The translations under genes and the position numbers were made by a program. A stretch of DNA of 22,255 nucleotides from a virus: IMG/VR virus record IMGVR_UViG_3300008107_000468, positions 1 to 22,255 of that record; one strand, given 5' to 3'. The notes under the pieces are model-generated. The model worked only from the letters and a program-made list of their open reading frames with translations, ran no database searches and had not been told where the DNA came from. Shown one piece after another: positions 4,876 through 19,021 of this stretch (its first letter is position 1; each line of letters begins with the position of its first letter).

Positions 4876-6240
4876 ATGCCAAATAATTATGTCTTACTAG
4901 AACGCATCGAACTCAACGCTTCGGCAGCTTCGGTAACCTTCTCCAACATTCCGCAGACCGGTTATACTGATCTGAAGATTGTTGTATCTGCGCGGTCAAC
5001 TGATGCTAATAATATTTACATAACATTTAATGGAGTAACTACTTCTTACGCTTCACGCTTTCTGTATGGAACTGGTTCTGCCGCAGCCTCAGGAAACGAT
5101 GCTACACGTTATGTTGGAACAACAAATGACTCAACCACAACTGCTAATACTTTCGGTAATGCAGAAATTTATATTCCTAATTACACATCTAGTAATTTTA
5201 AGTCAGTATCAACAGACTCAGTAGGCGAAACAAATGCCACTACTATTTATTCTGTTTTGGATGCTCAACTGTGGTCTAATACAGCAGCAATTACAAGCAT
5301 TGCTTTAGCCCCTTCATCTGGTTCCTATGTCCAATACTCAACCTTCAGCCTCTACGGTCTAGCAGCAGTCGGCACTACACCTGCCATTGCGCCAAAGGCT
5401 AGCGGTGGAAATGTGATTGCAACTGATGGTACTTACTGGTATCACGCCTTCCTTGCATCAGGAACATTTACTCCGCAGGTTGGTTTAACTGCTGATGTGT
5501 TAGTCATTGCAGGTGGCGGTTCTGGTGGAAGTTACTACGGCGGTGGTGGTGGTGCTGGTGGAGTATGTAATCAGACATCAAGGTCAATAGTTACAGGTTC
5601 TTATACCGTAACTATCGGTGCTGGCGGAGCCAGCGCAAACGCAGTACAGGGAAACAACGGTAGCAATTCTGTTTTTGACACTATCACTGCTAATGGCGGT
5701 GGCGGTGGTGGTCGTTGGGTAACAACTTCTGCTAATGGAAGCGCTGGCGGTTCCGGTGGTGGCGGATCAATGGGAACTGCTGCTGGTAACTCAACTACAG
5801 GCGGCGCTGCGAATCAGGGTACATCTGGTGGAGCAACAGGCTATGGCTTTGCTGGAGGAAATGGTTATCGCGGAACTCCGCCTGCTTACAAAGGTGGCGG
5901 TGGTGGTGGCTCCGGTGCTGTTGGTGCTAACGCAACAACTGATAACACAACTCCTGGTGCAAACGGTGGTGCGGGATTAAATACTTGGTCAACTTGGGCA
6001 ACCGCAACTTCAACTGGTGTCAGCGGTTACTACGCAGGTGGTGGCGGTGGCAGTACAGAGGGTTCAACACCAGGTACTGGTGGTGCTGGTGGTGGAGGAA
6101 CTGGATCAATCGGCGGATCATTAACCGTAGCAACATCTGGAATAGTTAACACAGGTTCTGGCGGTGGGGCAGATGGTGCAATCGTGCCATCTGGCGCAGG
6201 CGGTTCGGGAATTGTTATTATTAGATATCCAATAGTTTAA
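4876..6240 (+). CDS. Two-domain tail protein: beta domain plus glycine-rich tip
   Basis: A 454-residue paralogue of the preceding protein, with an AGGGGAG ribosome site. The N-terminal beta domain (ASAASVTFSNIP, IYITFNGVTTSYASRFLYG, FSLYGLAA) spans about residues 1-168. The hinge GTYWYHAFLASGTFTP leads to the Gly-rich tip at about residue 205, which ends GGSGIVIIRYPIV. The tip contains a WSTWATATSTG segment also found in the 2130 gene (WATVTSTG), so tip segments are shared across paralogues in a mosaic way. It probably binds receptor. Several related tips in tandem imply either a hetero-oligomeric tip or a reservoir for recombination. Confidence 0.75.
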   Translation: MPNNYVLLERIELNASAASVTFSNIPQTGYTDLKIVVSARSTDANNIYITFNGVTTSYASRFLYGTGSAAASGNDATRYVGTTNDSTTTANTFGNAEIYIPNYTSSNFKSVSTDSVGETNATTIYSVLDAQLWSNTAAITSIALAPSSGSYVQYSTFSLYGLAAVGTTPAIAPKASGGNVIATDGTYWYHAFLASGTFTPQVGLTADVLVIAGGGSGGSYYGGGGGAGGVCNQTSRSIVTGSYTVTIGAGGASANAVQGNNGSNSVFDTITANGGGGGGRWVTTSANGSAGGSGGGGSMGTAAGNSTTGGAANQGTSGGATGYGFAGGNGYRGTPPAYKGGGGGGSGAVGANATTDNTTPGANGGAGLNTWSTWATATSTGVSGYYAGGGGGSTEGSTPGTGGAGGGGTGSIGGSLTVATSGIVNTGSGGGADGAIVPSGAGGSGIVIIRYPIV

Positions 6241-10153: not shown

Positions 10154-10507
10154 CTAAAATATGCCAGAGTCACTATCATTATGCAGGTGTGTCTTTAACC
10201 GGTGGCAGTTGGCACACAGGGTTTGCAAGTTAACAGGGTCGTTGTTATGACTGTTTCCGTCTATGTGGTCTACATCCAACTGACTGCTATGTTCAGGTAC
10301 GAATCCGCAATGCTCGCAAGCATCTTTCTTGTGCAAGGTGTATGGATACTGGCTTTTCTGGATGTTTCTTTTATAGACAGTCCTGCAGCGAAAGCGACCA
10401 GCAGGAGTGGAGTGATGCTTGTTGCGGATCTTTATCTTGGTTGGACCACAAACTGAGCAGATTGCTCTGCGATTTATTTCATCTACTTCAGATAATTTGT
10501 GATTCAT
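10154..10507 (-). CDS. HNH endonuclease
   Basis: A 117-residue protein. I use the ATG at 10507; a longer reading to 10567 would run into the upstream gene. An N-terminal Cys17-x2-Cys20 zinc knuckle precedes a typical HNH domain: Cys64-x2-Cys67 zinc pair, the Asp80-His81 catalytic pair in DVDHIDGN, Asn93 in DPVNLQ, and Cys98-x2-Cys101-His102. HNH enzymes nick or cut DNA using one metal ion. In phages they act as homing endonucleases or help terminase. This one is far from terL and stands in reverse orientation with one partner gene between two plus-strand operons, so a selfish homing element is plausible. It overlaps the upstream gene by 20 nt. Confidence 0.87.
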   Translation of the reverse strand: MNHKLSEVDEINRRAICSVCGPTKIKIRNKHHSTPAGRFRCRTVYKRNIQKSQYPYTLHKKDACEHCGFVPEHSSQLDVDHIDGNSHNNDPVNLQTLCANCHRLKTHLHNDSDSGIF

Positions 10508-10748
10508 CTTTGTCCACCGGACAAGGAACACGGACGAGATTACCGCAGTTGACGCAGGTAGCGTCAAGGAAATACCAGACTAGCTCGTAGTCATCAAAGG
10601 CCGCCATAACGCTAAAGACCTGCGACCCACACGGACACACGTGAACAGGGCCTAAAGCCCTTAAATCGGTGCCGTAAGGCTCAGGAAGGCCATCGTGTGG
10701 TACTTTACGGCTGAATAATTTAGGCATAACAAAGGGGTGGAACCGCAT
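10488..10748 (-). CDS. Small zinc-ribbon-like protein
   Basis: An 86-residue protein with a strong AGGAG seven nt before the ATG at 10748. The N-terminus MPKLFSRKVPHDG follows an in-frame second Met at position 8. It has a CPCG pair around residue 38 and a CVNCG pair around residue 70, so a zinc ribbon is likely, with a hydrophobic beta core between (FSVMAAFDDYELVWYFLDA). I do not recognise a named family. It is co-transcribed with the HNH gene and the frames overlap. It could help DNA binding or be an unrelated early protein. Confidence 0.65.
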   Translation of the reverse strand: MRFHPFVMPKLFSRKVPHDGLPEPYGTDLRALGPVHVCPCGSQVFSVMAAFDDYELVWYFLDATCVNCGNLVRVPCPVDKDESQII

Positions 10749-10832: not shown

Positions 10833-10883
10833 CCGATAGTGTCGCTCCGCGACGACACGCCGATAGGTGATAAGATTTGTTTT
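10833..10883 (+). promoter_or_regulatory. Leaderless promoter with flanking operator-like repeats
   Basis: TAAGAT at 10871-10876 fits the actinobacterial -10 pattern TANNNT and lies seven nt before the ATG of the protease gene, so the transcript probably starts at or next to that ATG. No ribosome site precedes the ATG. Just upstream is the inverted repeat GTGTCG (10839-10844) / CGACAC (10853-10858), itself bracketed by two copies of CCGATAG (10833-10839 and 10860-10866). This repeat covers the -35 region, which suits a repressor or activator site. Confidence 0.5.
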
Positions 10884-11444
10884 ATGACAACACTGGTAGG
10901 AATCCAAGGACCTGACTTCGTAGTGATGGGTGCTGATTCGCAGATAACCGATAACGATCAGCGGATCATTAGCACTCAGACGCCCAAGATAGTACGCAAG
11001 GGTAAGTACCTGTTAGGTGTGACTGGTGACTCACGCCCAGGAGATATCTTGATCTATAACTGGAAGCCTCCGATGTATAAACGCCAAGATCCTGTGGATT
11101 GGATGGGAAGGGTTGTCATACCTTCGATCTACAATGCGTTCAAAGATAATGGCTACGAACCAAACGACAAGGAAGCGAGCTTCGCTTACCTACTTGCCTT
11201 TGATTCGTATCTGTTTTCTATCGGCTCGGATCTATCCTTTAATGGTAGTGAGAACGGACTATTTACGGCAGGTAGTGGTGGTCCATACGCACTCGGTTAT
11301 CTGTACTCACTCAAGCCCGGTTCATACAAGAGCCTGCTAATGGCAAAAGTAATTGCAGAAAGAGCAGTAAAGATCGCGTCGGTTCTTGACATCAATACCT
11401 GTCCACCGATTCAATTAGAAACTCAACAGAGAGGATGGGAATAA
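10884..11444 (+). CDS. HslV/proteasome-beta-like Ntn-hydrolase protease
   Basis: A 186-residue protein. I start at ATG 10884; the in-frame GTG at 10839 lies in the upstream repeat. After removal of Met the chain begins T-T-L-V-G-I, so Thr1 is a candidate N-terminal nucleophile, as in HslV and proteasome beta subunits. Asp17 (GADSQIT) is in the family position, Lys34 (TPKI) is within one residue of Lys33, and Ser130 lies in GSGGPYALG, nearly identical to the HslV segment GSGGPYA. LLGVTGDSRPGD matches the following strand-turn. The family forms barrel-shaped rings that degrade proteins fed by an ATPase (HslU, Mpa/ARC). No ATPase is in the window, so a host partner or ATP-independent action is implied. 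It heads the early operon and its stop overlaps the next start (TAATG). Confidence 0.82.
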   Translation: MTTLVGIQGPDFVVMGADSQITDNDQRIISTQTPKIVRKGKYLLGVTGDSRPGDILIYNWKPPMYKRQDPVDWMGRVVIPSIYNAFKDNGYEPNDKEASFAYLLAFDSYLFSIGSDLSFNGSENGLFTAGSGGPYALGYLYSLKPGSYKSLLMAKVIAERAVKIASVLDINTCPPIQLETQQRGWE

Positions 11445-11533
11445 TGCTTGGATTTTTATTTGGTTTGCTATTTGGTTTCGTTGGGGCGTATGCTCTTGAC
11501 TATTACCTTACGTGGAGGGATAACCGCAGATGA
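11444..11533 (+). CDS. 29-residue single-TM protein
   Basis: Its start overlaps the protease stop (TAATG) and its TGA overlaps the next ATG (ATGA), the same coupling used through this operon. The protein is one hydrophobic helix (LGFLFGLLFGFVGAYAL, residues 2-18) and a charged end (DYYLTWRDNRR). A small inner-membrane protein of unknown function. Its coupling to a protease gene is suggestive, but no motif ties them. Confidence 0.55.
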   Translation: MLGFLFGLLFGFVGAYALDYYLTWRDNRR

Positions 11534-11715
11534 AAGTAAACGAGTACTTAGATACTCGCCTTGCTGCTTATAGGGGTTTGATTGAACGCAAAGAATTGCG
11601 TGAATCAAGTTGTCCTTTTTGCGGAGAAAAAATTCAGAACTTTGAATACACAAAAGGTATGGTCACAGCTTTCGATATGGTAAAGGAATTTATTAATGGT
11701 AATAGAAAACCCTAA
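11530..11715 (+). CDS. Small protein with one CxxC
   Basis: A 61-residue protein starting at ATG 11530, overlapping the membrane-protein stop. Residues 1-27 are helical (MKVNEYLDTRLAAYRGLIER). A single CPFCGEK motif at about 28-33 is followed by a helix (GMVTAFDMVKEFING). With only one Cys pair it may bind zinc as a dimer or not at all. No family recognised. It overlaps the nuclease gene by 20 nt. Confidence 0.55.
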   Translation: MKVNEYLDTRLAAYRGLIERKELRESSCPFCGEKIQNFEYTKGMVTAFDMVKEFINGNRKP

Positions 11716-12655
11716 GGAACTGTTGCTGCACGTACTGCACTCTAAAGATGCAGGTCGTGACCGCAGTAAGCAAACACAGGTAGGTCCGTCAGAGATCGGT
11801 GGCTGCCGTCGTAAGGTTTGGTACCGGTTGAACGCACAGCCAGAGACTAATGAGAATCAGTCAAAGCTGGCAGCAATTATGGGTACTGCTATTCACGCTG
11901 CTATCGAAGATGCAATCACCACGCTAGATCCAGAAGGTAAGGATTACCTAGTTGAGACTGCAGTTGAGTACGGTGATATGAGAGCACACGTTGACTTATT
12001 CGTACCGGGTATCGGTGCAGTCATTGACTGGAAGACATCTAAGGTAAAGAACCTTTCATACTTTCCGTCAGTGCAACAGCGCTGGCAAGTACAGGTCTAT
12101 GGCTATCTGCTATCTAAGAACGGTCACGAAGTAAAGACTGTAAACCTAGTAGCCATTGCACGTGATGGTGATGAGAAGGATATTAAAGTCTATTCTGAAC
12201 CATACGATGAAGCATCAGCGCTAGAAGCGCTACAGTGGTTGGCTAATGTCAAGGCTTTGCAAGAAGCACCAGCACCTGAGAAGGATGCAAACTTCTGCAA
12301 GAACTACTGCCAGTACTACGACGCATCTGGAGAGATGGGTTGTGTAGGTCTAATAAAAGAACGTATCGTCCTTAGTGAAGTCGTGATTGAGGACGCACAA
12401 GTTGACACCCACGCATTGAAGTACCTTCAGTTAGATGAGAAGATCAAAGAGCTGGAGAAGGAAAAGGATTCCTTGAAGTCATCCTTCGAGGGAACTACTG
12501 GCGTTACTGCTAGTGGTATTCAGATCAGTTGGACAACGGTTAAAGGTCGTGAGACAGTTGACTATGAACAAGTAGAAAAACTATTAGGCTTTTTACCGAA
12601 GTTAGTTGGTAAAGAATCTATTAGATTAAACATCAAACCAAGTGGAGGAAAGTAA
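11696..12655 (+). CDS. Cas4/RecB-like PD-(D/E)XK nuclease with Fe-S cluster
   Basis: A 319-residue protein, with AAGGAA upstream of ATG 11696. The nuclease core is visible: His67 (GTAIHAAIED), Asp100 (AHVDLFV), Asp111-x-Lys113 (VIDWKTSK) and a QVQVYGYL helix at 131-138. Cys37 (GGCRRKVWY) pairs with the C-terminal cluster Cys201-x3-Cys205-x10-Cys216, the four-Cys layout of the 4Fe-4S AddB/Cas4 family. It probably acts as an exonuclease resecting DNA ends in phage recombination or host DNA breakdown. Residues 235-262 form a charged coiled coil that could bind a partner. The zinc-tail protein follows immediately. No CRISPR genes are present, so a Cas4 role in spacer acquisition is unlikely. Confidence 0.85.
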   Translation: MVIENPKELLLHVLHSKDAGRDRSKQTQVGPSEIGGCRRKVWYRLNAQPETNENQSKLAAIMGTAIHAAIEDAITTLDPEGKDYLVETAVEYGDMRAHVDLFVPGIGAVIDWKTSKVKNLSYFPSVQQRWQVQVYGYLLSKNGHEVKTVNLVAIARDGDEKDIKVYSEPYDEASALEALQWLANVKALQEAPAPEKDANFCKNYCQYYDASGEMGCVGLIKERIVLSEVVIEDAQVDTHALKYLQLDEKIKELEKEKDSLKSSFEGTTGVTASGIQISWTTVKGRETVDYEQVEKLLGFLPKLVGKESIRLNIKPSGGK

Positions 12656-13056: not shown

Positions 13057-13323
13057 ATGCGCGAGCCAAGGTTCTTTGAAGACCCTGCTTGCGCCACAGT
13101 AGGTGGAGATTTCTGGTTTCCAGAAAAGCACGACGGAACCAGTAACTCTACTGAAATGCTACTGGCTATCTCCATTTGTAAGAAGTGTGTTCATCAAACT
13201 GAGTGCGCTGAATGGGGAATAAACAACGAACGCTTTGGTATATGGGGCGGGGTAACTGAAAGACAACGACGAATCATTCGTCAACAAAAGAATATTACGT
13301 TGAGAGGGGAAGACGTTGCTTGA
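13057..13323 (+). CDS. whiB: WhiB-family Fe-S transcriptional regulator
   Basis: An 88-residue protein from ATG 13057, four nt after the previous stop. It carries the four cluster cysteines Cys12 (DPACATV), Cys41, Cys44 and Cys50 (CKKCVHQTEC) in the C-x2-C-x5-C layout, followed by the GIWGG turn at 61-65 and a basic tail (TERQRRIIRQQ) that contacts DNA. WhiB proteins bind a 4Fe-4S or NO-sensitive cluster and act on the principal sigma factor of Actinobacteria. Phage copies may silence or redirect host genes, as shown for mycobacteriophage TM4 WhiB. Its location in the early operon, between a nuclease and an ATPase, suggests early expression. This is the main host-range marker in the window. 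Confidence 0.95.
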   Translation: MREPRFFEDPACATVGGDFWFPEKHDGTSNSTEMLLAISICKKCVHQTECAEWGINNERFGIWGGVTERQRRIIRQQKNITLRGEDVA

Positions 13324-14167
13324 TCTATCACGTGCCTGGAGAGGTGTGCTTACCAAGGCAACACCACTTCCTGACGTGTGGTTAGCACTGTCTGCCAAGC
13401 AGATTAAGTTCCGGCGAGGACAAGTCTGTATGGTGGCGGCTGCACCCAACGCTGGTAAGAGTATGTTTGCTCTTATCTATGCGATGAAGGCAGGCGTTAA
13501 AACTCTTTTCTTCTCAGCAGATACAGACACCACAACTGTAATGATGCGAGCTGCAGCAGCAGCCTCCGGTCATTCACAGGTATCGGTAGAATTGAACTTA
13601 TCTAAGGACAGTCACTACTACGATAAACACTTTGACAAACTAAGCCATATCAAATGGGTCTTTGATTCGTCGCCGTCACTAGACGATATCGAGTTAGAGA
13701 TAAAAGCATACGTGGAGTTATACGGCGAGGCTCCAGAGTTAATAGTTATAGATAACTTAATGAACGTGGCAGCAGAGACTGATAATGAATGGGCTGGTCT
13801 GCGTGCAATTATGATGGAGTTGCACGATATGGCACGCAAGACAGAAGCCTGTGTGTTAGTACTGCACCACGTCTCTGAGCAAAGCGAGTATGGCTCACCG
13901 TCAAAGCCACCTGCTCGCCGTGCTATTCACGGTAAGGTAAGTCAATTACCTGCCTTGATCCTAACCCTTGGGTATGATCCAAACCAAGCGGTTCTTTGCG
14001 TTGCTGCTGTGAAGAACCGTTTTGGTCCCCATACCGCTGATGCCTCTGACTACGCTACGCTCTTCGTGAACTATGCGGCTTGTCAGATATCAGATAAAGA
14101 TGCGTGGGGTGTTATGATTAAAAACGATGCAATGAACAACTACCAGGGTAACTACATAGTCCAGTAA
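13316..14167 (+). CDS. RecA/DnaB-like ATPase, probable replicative helicase
   Basis: A 283-residue protein starting at TTG 13316, overlapping whiB by 8 nt, with GAGGGG upstream. Walker A is AAPNAGKS (residues 42-49) and Walker B is LIVIDN (142-147). A VLVLHH strand near 176 fits the RecA-fold sensor. These match the AAA_25/DnaB-RecA-like group used by phages as replicative helicases or recombinases. It lacks the N-terminal primase-binding domain of full DnaB, so it is short for a helicase. The two primase genes downstream support a helicase role, and the upstream nuclease leaves a recombinase possible. Confidence 0.78.
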   Translation: MLDLSRAWRGVLTKATPLPDVWLALSAKQIKFRRGQVCMVAAAPNAGKSMFALIYAMKAGVKTLFFSADTDTTTVMMRAAAAASGHSQVSVELNLSKDSHYYDKHFDKLSHIKWVFDSSPSLDDIELEIKAYVELYGEAPELIVIDNLMNVAAETDNEWAGLRAIMMELHDMARKTEACVLVLHHVSEQSEYGSPSKPPARRAIHGKVSQLPALILTLGYDPNQAVLCVAAVKNRFGPHTADASDYATLFVNYAACQISDKDAWGVMIKNDAMNNYQGNYIVQ

Positions 14168-16791: not shown

Positions 16792-17171
16792 AAGAGGCAG
16801 ACCTCTTCGCCTATCTTAAAGGTAGCCTATACCCAGACCTAGTAAAGAGTCCGGGGATCTATGATAGTTATGATTGCACCAGCGAGAAGGCTGCTCATTA
16901 CATCGAACTTAAATGTAGGCAGACTCACTATCCAACCCTGCTTATCGAAGAGATTAAGTATCGCAAGCTCATCACTCAAGCAGCAGAGCGTGATCTTATC
17001 CCGTATTACATTAACTCTACTCCACTTGGTATCTATTCCTTTGACCTTATGGATCTACCGGAACCAGAATGGTATACAGAAGTGATGCCAGTGTCTACCG
17101 AGTTTGAGAACAAGAATAAGGTTTACAAGTTAGTAGGTTACTTAGATATAAACGAGGCGGTAAAGCTGTGA
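16788..17171 (+). CDS. Small PD-(D/E)XK nuclease-like protein
   Basis: A 127-residue protein, ATGA-coupled to the previous stop. DSYDCTSEKAAHYIELKCRQ has an acidic residue followed by Glu40-x-Lys42, like the core of a PD-(D/E)XK nuclease; the IEEIKYRKL helix then follows. The second half is beta/alpha without further motif. The pattern is too short for certainty. If a nuclease, it is the third of this fold in the operon. Confidence 0.5.
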   Translation: MKEADLFAYLKGSLYPDLVKSPGIYDSYDCTSEKAAHYIELKCRQTHYPTLLIEEIKYRKLITQAAERDLIPYYINSTPLGIYSFDLMDLPEPEWYTEVMPVSTEFENKNKVYKLVGYLDINEAVKL

Positions 17172-17338
17172 TCTATTCTTTTAACTGCGAGTGCGGTAGC
17201 ACCAGAGATATCGAGCAATCTATCCACGCTGAGGTAATAGAGCCTATGTGTACCGATTGCCACAAGTCTATGCAACGAGTCTGGTCTTCTCCCGCTATCA
17301 CCTTCAAGGGTAAAGGCTTTTATAGTAACGGTGGATAA
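17168..17338 (+). CDS. FmdB-like zinc-ribbon protein
   Basis: A 56-residue protein starting at GTG 17168, sharing GTGA with the previous stop. It has Cys7-x-Cys9 (FNCECGS) and Cys28-x2-Cys31 (CTDCHKS), then RVWSSPAITFKGKGFYSNGG. The SPAITFKGKGFY ending is typical of the FmdB-type zinc ribbon seen in bacteria and many phages. The first pair is CxC where CxxC is usual. Its role is unknown; zinc-dependent binding is likely. It is the last gene of the early operon. Confidence 0.8.
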   Translation: MIYSFNCECGSTRDIEQSIHAEVIEPMCTDCHKSMQRVWSSPAITFKGKGFYSNGG

Positions 17339-17340
17339 AG

Positions 17341-17382
17341 CACTAACCCCCACCGGAAAGAGGTTAACGGTGAGGGCTAGTG
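17341..17382. repeat. Imperfect hairpin between convergent operons
   Basis: The 15-nt arms at 17341-17355 and 17368-17382 pair at 13 of 15 positions around a 12-nt loop. It sits between the stop of the plus operon (17338) and the stop of the reverse methyltransferase (17408). There is no T-run, so it may end transcription weakly in both directions or stabilise 3' ends. Confidence 0.55.
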
Positions 17383-17407
17383 GTCTTGCTGTCCCGAGAG
17401 AAGGTTC

Positions 17408-17821
17408 TTAGATAGTATCACAGATACCTTGGATGATCCACTCTACGACAGGCACGGCAACTGCGTTGCCCATTTGTTTGTAGCGAGTTGAGTCCGGTTG
17501 TCCTGCTGTCCAATCATCAGGAAAACCTTGCAATCTTTCACACTCTACTGGAGTTAAGCGGCGTACACCGCTTTGATCTGAAAGCATTGACACGTTGTTT
17601 CCTCCCGTACCCATACGTGATGTAAGAGTATTCATAGTTTTGTCTTGAACTCTAGCTCCGTCGTGATAGTGAGGATGAAAGACAATTACTGTCGTTCGTA
17701 CATCACCATTATCAAATGCGTTAAGCGTTGGCATTACTCCTCCTTTAATCCAAGTTTCGTAGTCATCCACATTCTGTGCTCTCCTACTCTTGGTGAACCA
17801 CAAGGTTCTCACTTCCTCCAC
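17408..17821 (-). CDS. dcm: C5-cytosine methyltransferase, C-terminal fragment
   Basis: A 137-residue open frame in a different phase from the N-terminal fragment. It carries motif IX-like RRLTPVECERLQGFPDDWT and motif X-like RYKQMGNAVAVPVVEW, which close the catalytic fold, plus KSRRAQNVDDYETW and PTLNAFDNGDVRTT of the target-recognition region. The first codons (MEEVRTLWF, via a GTG) are probably not natural: coding similarity starts at about KSRRAQ. Together with the next feature it makes one enzyme of roughly 400 residues, interrupted by a shift near 17790-17805. Confidence 0.8.
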   Translation of the reverse strand: MEEVRTLWFTKSRRAQNVDDYETWIKGGVMPTLNAFDNGDVRTTVIVFHPHYHDGARVQDKTMNTLTSRMGTGGNNVSMLSDQSGVRRLTPVECERLQGFPDDWTAGQPDSTRYKQMGNAVAVPVVEWIIQGICDTI

Positions 17822-18599
17822 CTAGATCTCCACCATTGGCACGTAAGGTGCCAACTCCTTCTATGTATCCACCAAAGGATGATGAAGTAACTACTACATT
17901 GTCTTCTGGTCGTTTGTAACCACTAGCGGTAAGGGTAGTTACTCCTTCGGAGTACTTAGCGAAACCTGTTTGACCAAAGCTTCTTGCAGTGCTGGTGGTA
18001 GGGTCTTGCCCCTTCGATTGGCTCGTCGAAGGATCCCTTCGCAAGCCTTGTGGCTTAAAAAGTATTTCGGCAGGACTTGATGAGTTATTAGAACGTCTGC
18101 CAACGATGAAGACACGGCGCCGTCGCTGGGGTACTCCGAAGTATTGAGCATCAAGCACCCGCCATCCAACAGAATACCCGAGGTCGGCCATCGTCCCGAT
18201 GACGACTCCAAAATCTTTTCCGTTGTTACTGGATAACAGACCAGGGACGTTTTCGATGACGAAGTATTCTGTTTTCGTTTCTTCCACAAGTCTTGCAATT
18301 TCCCAGAAAAGCCCGCTTCTTTCACCAGCAAGACCAGCCCTCTTGCCAGCGACACTGAGGTCTTGGCAGGGAAATCCTCCTGTAATAATACCTTTGCTTG
18401 GATTAAATCCGGCATTTATTAAATCCTCTCCCTTAACTGTAGTTACATCTGTGAACCGTGTTGCTTCTGGGAAGTGCTTAGCAAGCACCTCGTTACACTT
18501 CTTATCTATCTCTACTGAGGCAACTACCTTTACTCCCTGCCGTTGCATAGCAAGGTCAAAGCCCCCGACTCCTGCGAATAAACTAACCCCGGTCAGCAT
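17784..18599 (-). CDS. dcm: C5-cytosine methyltransferase, N-terminal fragment
   Basis: A 271-residue frame from ATG 18599, sharing TGATG with the stop of the lysozyme-like gene. It has motif I FAGVGGFD (8-15), the catalytic Pro-Cys78-Gln (GGFPCQDLS), ENV (116-118) and the QRRRRVF motif VIII. It methylates C5 of cytosine using S-adenosylmethionine, probably to protect phage DNA from host restriction. It stops at TAG in the target-recognition region, where motifs IX and X are missing and occur in the next frame. Without them the enzyme should be inactive unless the fragments associate or a frameshift occurs. The sequence cannot separate real decay from an assembly error. Confidence 0.85.
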   Translation of the reverse strand: MLTGVSLFAGVGGFDLAMQRQGVKVVASVEIDKKCNEVLAKHFPEATRFTDVTTVKGEDLINAGFNPSKGIITGGFPCQDLSVAGKRAGLAGERSGLFWEIARLVEETKTEYFVIENVPGLLSSNNGKDFGVVIGTMADLGYSVGWRVLDAQYFGVPQRRRRVFIVGRRSNNSSSPAEILFKPQGLRRDPSTSQSKGQDPTTSTARSFGQTGFAKYSEGVTTLTASGYKRPEDNVVVTSSSFGGYIEGVGTLRANGGDLGGGSENLVVHQE

Positions 18600-19021
18600 C
18601 AATACCAGCCTCGTCTGTCGCTGTGGCGGAGAGCGCGACACGCGCTCCCTGAATAGCGATGGCTAAGGTATCTAAGGCCGTGTAGGACTTGGAGTTCAGG
18701 TCTGCTACTGCGTTCTCTAAGGAGTTGAGCAATTCCGTAAGCGCTTGATCCCTGCTGGTTCTTTGCGAGGTGGTCAAACCTTGACTCACGGGTCCATAGG
18801 GTGATAAGGCACGCTGTCTCTCGCTTCGTATATCCGAGAGCGCGACTATATTCTCTTGCGATCCGTTTGTTGTTTCGCTTCTCATCTATCGTCGCCTTCG
18901 TCCTCTTTGATATCTGTGGAGTAACTATCGAGTGATCCGGTGATAGATGAGTAGGTGCGAGTATCCATAGCAGGGATAGTGTTACCGTCAATATCAACCC
19001 ATTTTTTACCCATTTCAACAT
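18599..19021 (-). CDS. Membrane-anchored lysozyme/transglycosylase-like protein
   Basis: A 140-residue protein from ATG 19021, with AAGG upstream in the reverse strand; an in-frame earlier Met exists. Residues 8-22 form a membrane anchor or signal (GLILTVTLSLLWILA). The domain then shows CLITLWTRESRFDHLAKN, with Glu79 in the ES pair as the catalytic acid, SSAYGIAQLL, HGLRYLSHRYSGSACRALRHS and a GWY end. This is the order of actinobacterial SLT/lysozyme-like domains, with the loop after GIAQ shortened. It probably cleaves glycan strands, at entry or exit. Its first 140 nt overlap the next gene in another frame, and both frames look genuine. Confidence 0.8.
   Translation of the reverse strand: MLKWVKNGLILTVTLSLLWILAPTHLSPDHSIVTPQISKRTKATIDEKRNNKRIAREYSRALGYTKRETACLITLWTRESRFDHLAKNQQGSSAYGIAQLLRERSSRPELQVLHGLRYLSHRYSGSACRALRHSDRRGWY

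Follow-up and report, generated by a model that had tools for sequence, protein, structure and literature searches.

A gene for a proteasome-like N-terminal-nucleophile protein lies at positions 10884–11444 (+ strand) of IMG/VR virus record IMGVR_UViG_3300008107_000468, and in some related phages its slot is occupied by an unrelated metallopeptidase-like gene that the initial annotation of this DNA had overlooked. We analysed positions 1–22,255 of that record (G+C 46.7%; 'the window'). Our preferred reading, to which we give a probability of roughly 0.6, is that the 186-residue product is an early, self-compartmentalising threonine peptidase that works without an unfoldase, proteasome-like and nearest to BPH, and that the locus is kept for peptidase activity.

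The first part of the window carries tail proteins, an endolysin, a short hydrophobic ORF and a divergent intergenic region, followed by the protease gene. Between 2130 and 6240 lie genes for three Gly/Ser-rich proteins, close to one another and with a common repeat-rich domain at the C terminus (PHROG 2295); they represent duplicated fibre-like genes. A divergent ORF with CxC motifs (10488–10748, − strand) is a conserved neighbour upstream of the promoter region. Downstream, all on the + strand, come a 29-residue single-span membrane peptide (MLGFLFGLLFGFVGAYALDYYLTWRDNRR; 11444–11533), the ATG of which overlaps the protease stop codon; a 61-residue ORF with a CxxC motif that varies among relatives (11530–11715); a PD-(D/E)XK/Cas4–RecE-like exonuclease (11696–12655); a gp49-like protein; a WhiB-like transcription factor (13057–13323; Pfam WhiB, 1.4e-12); a DnaB-like replicative helicase (13316–14167); and then a resolvase-like nuclease, primase parts and a sigma-factor-like protein. 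The WhiB match marks the virus as an actinophage, and by tail protein and helicase its nearest named relatives are LanE43-AprF5 and LanE43-AprE7, with which phages of 'Ca. Planktophila' were first brought into culture (PMC10202952). On these sequence grounds the window virus and its relatives are actinophages whose closest cultured kin infect 'Ca. Planktophila'. A C5-cytosine DNA methyltransferase is divided between two ORFs that adjoin or overlap, both in the window (17408–18641, − strand) and in a 41-kb relative (L243, 5021–6228), which makes an assembly error unlikely.

The initial annotation had described the protein as a proteasome-beta-like phage protease from a Thr-Thr pair after Met, Asp17, Lys34 and Ser130. 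All of these residues are present (T2, D18, K35 and S131 when Met is counted, in a protein that begins M-T-T), and the family assignment was borne out, well past what chance would give, by matches to Pfam Proteasome (9.1e-6, above the gathering score) and to PHROG 1040, 'peptidase HslV family' (1.3e-22, residues 1–181). The residues singled out in the protein are Thr1, Asp17, Lys34 (equivalent to Lys33), Gly47, Ser130, Asp168 and Thr171. Across 155 distinct relatives from two freshwater phage clades, Thr1, Thr2, Asp17, Ser18, Lys34, Gly47, Arg50, Gly129, Gly131 and Thr171 are invariant, Ser130 is either Ser or Thr, and Asp168 is either Asp or Asn; in all 155, Thr immediately follows the start codon, a conservation that the initial annotation had proposed looking for in other actinophages. 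A set of 20 diverse phage sequences with 18–33% identity retains T1, D17, K34, G44, G129, G131 and A135 without exception (Thr1 numbering). dN/dS was 0.01–0.10 for pairs that included the window and 0.11–0.33 for five other pairs.

An AlphaFold monomer model built on a 54-sequence alignment (mean pLDDT 93.1) has the four-layer alpha-beta-beta-alpha fold with helices H1–H4; the C-terminal H5 is absent. The N-terminal Thr that removal of Met would expose, the equivalents of Asp17, Lys33 and Gly47 and the four-layer fold that characterize the PF00227 clan were thus all found in the window protein. Loss of Thr1, Asp17 or Lys33, or a wrong fold, had been named as refuting the assignment; none was seen in the 155 relatives or in the model. 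The structural comparison that the annotation had suggested placed BPH first and HslV close behind: Foldseek returned BPH (5ovs) on top (E 9e-12, TM 0.78), the best solved match of a profile search against the PDB was again BPH (4e-12, residues 2–182), and VIA-align scored BPH (Z 20.4) level with 20S beta subunits, with HslV also at a Z of about 20.

The name HslV itself was not supported. HslV (ClpQ) has in common with the window protein the fold, a Thr1 directly after Met and the GSGGPYA motif, but the window protein reached only 28.6 bits where TIGR03692 requires 157.75 and 29.3 where NF003964 requires 137, about fivefold short of these curated NCBI equivalog models, and neither an HslU gene nor the basic pore cluster was found. 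Its H1–H2 linker, longer than that of HslV, contains a PP motif that is also found in BPH and is absent from HslV. Where HslV has a basic cluster (PMC5777263), the H2–S7 pore loop of the window protein's relatives is 11–16 residues long; acidic residues outnumber basic ones in each member of the clades, by 1–3 in the window's own clade. BPH (5ovs/5ovt) forms a double ring with an acidic pore loop and has no known unfoldase (PMC5777263). It resembles the window protein in the Thr1/Asp17/Lys/Gly/Ser set, the lack of a propeptide, the PP in the H1–H2 linker, the net acidic pore loop and the lack of any unfoldase gene that could be found; the two differ in that identity is only about 21%, that the window protein is encoded by a phage, and that its pore loop is shorter and less acidic.

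Phage-borne members of the proteasome-like superfamily have been described as PPH, which has about 140 residues and lacks H2, and as AAH (Fuchs 2021, PMC8665760). The window protein shares with these and with PHROG 1040 homologues the catalytic residues and the absence of an AAA+ partner, but the actinophage M-T-T branch groups apart from the proteins of other phages and bacteria that were compared; PPH does not apply because helix H2 is present (residues 70–88) and the protein is 186 residues long. By phmmer scores, the window, Planktophila-phage and DSL-LC01 clades form one M-T-T branch (median 74–80 bits among the three), which single genes of Pitbull, Pumpernickel and Tunturi_5 join more loosely. 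Scores fall to about 40 bits against the M-T-C/M-T-V group found in phages of proteobacteria and firmicutes, bacteria and a few plasmids, with HslV and BPH farther still by single-sequence score. Plasmid homologues from Paraburkholderia, Streptomyces, Bacillus and Rhizobium are distant (24–30% identity); within the more distant M-T-C/V group, the genes from Rhizobium, Paraburkholderia and Streptomyces may be AAH. The group is abundant in freshwater: one scan matched at least 600 stretches, and 575 of the 600 listed were relatives. A scan of a genome collection gave one distant MAG match only, from which neither host nor provirus could be deduced, and our literature search found no papers joining Nanopelagicales with proteasomes. 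Among the more distant relatives, Aeromonas phage 2L372X (L068) has two adjacent proteasome-like genes, one of M-T-C type (899–1450) and a short V-T-T type starting at 1468. Two Vibrio phages (L065 and L071) have an M-T-C homologue near a polypeptide deformylase gene, the product of which could help to expose the N-terminal Thr.

A promoter-like site conserved in relatives, newly described here for the window clade, lies directly ahead of the protease gene. The window has, 7 nt ahead of the ATG, an extended −10 element, TGA-TAAGAT (TGATAAGAT; 10868–10876, + strand), which follows an inverted repeat GTGTCG...CGACAC and is the predicted promoter of a leaderless or nearly leaderless mRNA. A TANNNT ending 6–10 nt before the start codon occurred in 80 of the 88 distinct 60-nt upstream sequences of the window clade, 51 of them with a TGN extension, against a mean of 11.8 and a maximum of 20 in shuffled upstreams, and as this is the spacing of leaderless transcripts we predict a leaderless start. 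A sigma-70 pattern scan of the window had not listed this promoter because the scan demands a −35; the site emerged from comparing relatives. Within the Planktophila-phage clade, such a −10 site was present in only 7 of 50 upstreams. The inverted repeat (GTGTCG-CTCCGCGA-CGACAC; 10839–10858, + strand; one copy in the window, 0 expected by chance) is a probable operator or leader element, and its GACACGC core recurs in 79 of 88 window-clade upstreams and in 31 of 48 upstreams of the metallopeptidase-like gene. We rejected it as a repeated operator, as the window has a single copy and the core is not enriched. In two relatives (L004 and L048, near position 6001) the usual promoter gives way to an HNH endonuclease gene that overlaps, in a different frame, the beginning of the protease ORF; as the protease begins with ATC and not ATG in these records, its translation must start in an unusual or a coupled way. 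The initial annotation had placed the protease at the head of an early operon: the gene order, its lead of the run of replication genes and its own promoter-like site agree with that description, and it is from this arrangement that we infer early timing.

Slots were sampled by anchoring on the exonuclease, not on the protease, which gave 62 contigs with enough upstream sequence and 58 slots from a sister subclade. The threonine protease occupied 54 of the 62 and all 58 of the sister slots. Over the 120 slots, which come from related contigs and are not independent events, 112 held the threonine protease, 8 an HExxH metallopeptidase-like gene, none both and none neither. Each of the eight exceptions encodes, in the slot, an HExxH protein some 110 residues long (the L286 copy runs into unread bases), and a profile search found no threonine protease anywhere in those eight records. 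Mutual exclusion extended to long records, with no threonine gene in 12 of 12 metallopeptidase-type records and no metallopeptidase-like gene in 10 of 10 threonine-type records; the slot records are metagenome contigs, which may be incomplete. On an exonuclease tree (105 rows, quick search), slot state required seven changes, at least four of them forced by well-supported branches.

Alignment of the DNA of L271 and L373 showed similarity that spans the promoter up to the ATG, disappears within the ORF and returns around the stop codon and membrane-peptide start. The pair L109 and L332 gave the same ORF-for-ORF pattern, except that L332 has an additional small ORF (1214–1357) between the promoter and its metallopeptidase-like gene. 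In these alignments the exchange between the two gene types runs ORF for ORF from start to stop codon, and on the exonuclease tree it has happened repeatedly. The initial annotation had also linked the 29-residue membrane peptide to the protease, as a protein that could localise it; the ORF is real, its ATG overlapping the stop codon and its sequence kept in the window's subclade, but the link to the protease has partial support, since the peptide follows either type of slot gene and is absent from the sister subclade.

In the family of the exchange partner, HExxH is present in all 62 proteins, and H53, E54, H57, E74, E75 and D78 are invariant, giving HExxH plus a downstream acidic ligand. The same −10 arrangement precedes 34 of 48 family members and the exonuclease lies downstream in 47 of 62. 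The closest named family is PHROG 1233, which has no annotated function; Pfam matches to DUF6782 (1.2e-5) and M78 (1.6e-4) fall just under the curated cut-offs, and a sequence search of the PDB with the family gave nothing useful. A model (pLDDT 86) had weak fold matches, with no Foldseek E under 0.001 and VIA Z up to 5.5, the better of which were mostly zincins (minigluzincins, IrrE and Wss1). The invariant HExxH motif, the sub-threshold Pfam matches and the weak zincin fold matches point to a candidate metallopeptidase, weak by family score. The PHROG 1233/DUF6782/M78-like proteins share slot and promoter-like site with the threonine protease and are unrelated to it in sequence, fold and chemistry (HExxH, zincin-like).

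With two unrelated peptidase types replacing each other under one promoter, peptide-bond cleavage stands out as the property kept, and a slot that always holds one or the other seems reserved for a protein-cutting enzyme. It is unlikely that the slot is instead a general exchange site for accessory genes, for example anti-defence genes, in which two peptidase-like proteins with unrelated jobs turned up through sampling coincidence. Such a site could accommodate the extra small ORF between promoter and gene at the metallopeptidase-like locus of L332 and the HNH genes at the promoter in L004 and L048, and the nearest folds of the metallopeptidase-like protein include IrrE, Wss1/Spartan and ArdC-like zincins with DNA-linked roles; yet all 120 exonuclease-anchored slots held one of only two peptidase families, none being empty, and several independent exchanges preserved the promoter and the ORF boundaries. 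The swap with a metallopeptidase-like protein likewise weighs against a non-proteolytic Ntn enzyme (an amidase, or a transpeptidase-ligase like connectase) and against a decoy that would upset the host's own proteasome, readings to which we give a very slim chance. Ntn chemistry permits transfer reactions, connectase is a monomeric ligase among the proteasome-like proteins (PMC8665760), and actinobacterial hosts may have a proteasome to disturb; however, the model lacks the two-helix S3/S4 insertion of connectase, and a pure decoy would have no need of the full protease catalytic set that is strictly kept here.

Readings also diverge on how the enzyme would receive its substrates. The initial annotation had suggested a borrowed host ATPase of Mpa/ARC or Clp type, and we found nothing in favour of such borrowing in particular. 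A reading in which, as in HslVU, the ring associates with an unfoldase, here a host AAA+ protein (ClpX, ClpC or Mpa/ARC type), and breaks down folded host proteins is improbable: HslV is a close fold match, the GSGGPYAL motif is HslV-like and host AAA+ proteins would be invisible in phage genomes, but the curated HslV cut-off is far from reached and a longer, net acidic loop stands in place of the basic pore cluster. AAA or AAA_2 domains were found neither in the window, which agrees with the earlier remark that it contains no HslU, nor in 12 records of related viruses (the longest 41 kb, possibly fragments), against 14 of 14 positive control genomes; the DSL-LC01 record does have AAA matches. 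No co-occurring AAA+ partners were reported for the new superfamily homologues either (PMC8665760). The lack of AAA and AAA_2 domains in the phage records and the net acidic H2–S7 loop, neither of which is proof, favour a BPH-like, unfoldase-independent mode.

A head-maturation or scaffold-removing protease, early by position only, is rather more doubtful. In the cultured Planktophila phages LanE43-AprE7 and LanE43-AprF5 (PMC10202952), a homologue with about 30–33% identity immediately follows the portal gene and precedes a protein of some 1.7 thousand residues, and no known prohead protease family was detected among the head-region proteins scanned. The window-clade gene, however, sits outside the portal–capsid block, beside exonuclease, helicase and primase and with its own promoter-like site; homologues in other phages adjoin ThyX, thymidylate synthase/DHFR, dCMP deaminase, deformylase or DNA ligase; and an enclosed ring would hardly be able to reach an assembled shell. 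As the Planktophila-phage homologue follows the portal gene and has no promoter-like site, unlike the window gene, its role there may differ. In LanE43-AprF5 (L242) it occupies 17155–17691, between the portal gene and that of a 1711-residue protein and far from the replication genes.

BPH is a tetradecameric double ring that has no known unfoldase, and HslV is a dodecameric double ring. In the unfoldase-independent reading that we prefer, the protease would be made early from its own leaderless-type promoter, removal of fMet would expose Thr1, and catalysis would proceed by chemistry like that of HslV and the 20S beta subunit. The protein would most likely form a double ring like that of BPH or HslV, which would cut unfolded or specifically recruited proteins or peptides, whether of host, defence or phage origin, with no dedicated AAA+ unfoldase. 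BPH itself cleaved neither casein nor standard peptide substrates (PMC5777263), and activity of the window protein is therefore not to be taken for granted. What the locus would need is peptidase activity, its ORF having been swapped several times for an unrelated HExxH protein with the same promoter and the same downstream genes.

The peptidase-only slot with repeated exchange is, like the conserved −10 element, new. We propose, at about even odds, that freshwater actinophages have an early 'protease slot' in which, within one promoter and membrane-peptide/exonuclease context, a threonine protease and a zinc metallopeptidase have been exchanged ORF for ORF many times; the two would be functionally equivalent or would be arms-race alternatives against the same host process. 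Fuchs 2021 (PMC8665760) found no Actinobacteria-specific phage with AAH, a gap on which this abundant freshwater group bears. Phage relatives of the proteasome had been listed before with no known role, and, to our knowledge, genetic evidence that such a gene is kept for peptide-bond cleavage comes here for the first time, from the repeated swap for a protease of other chemistry. Cultured Planktophila phages carry a homologue, which makes bench testing possible.
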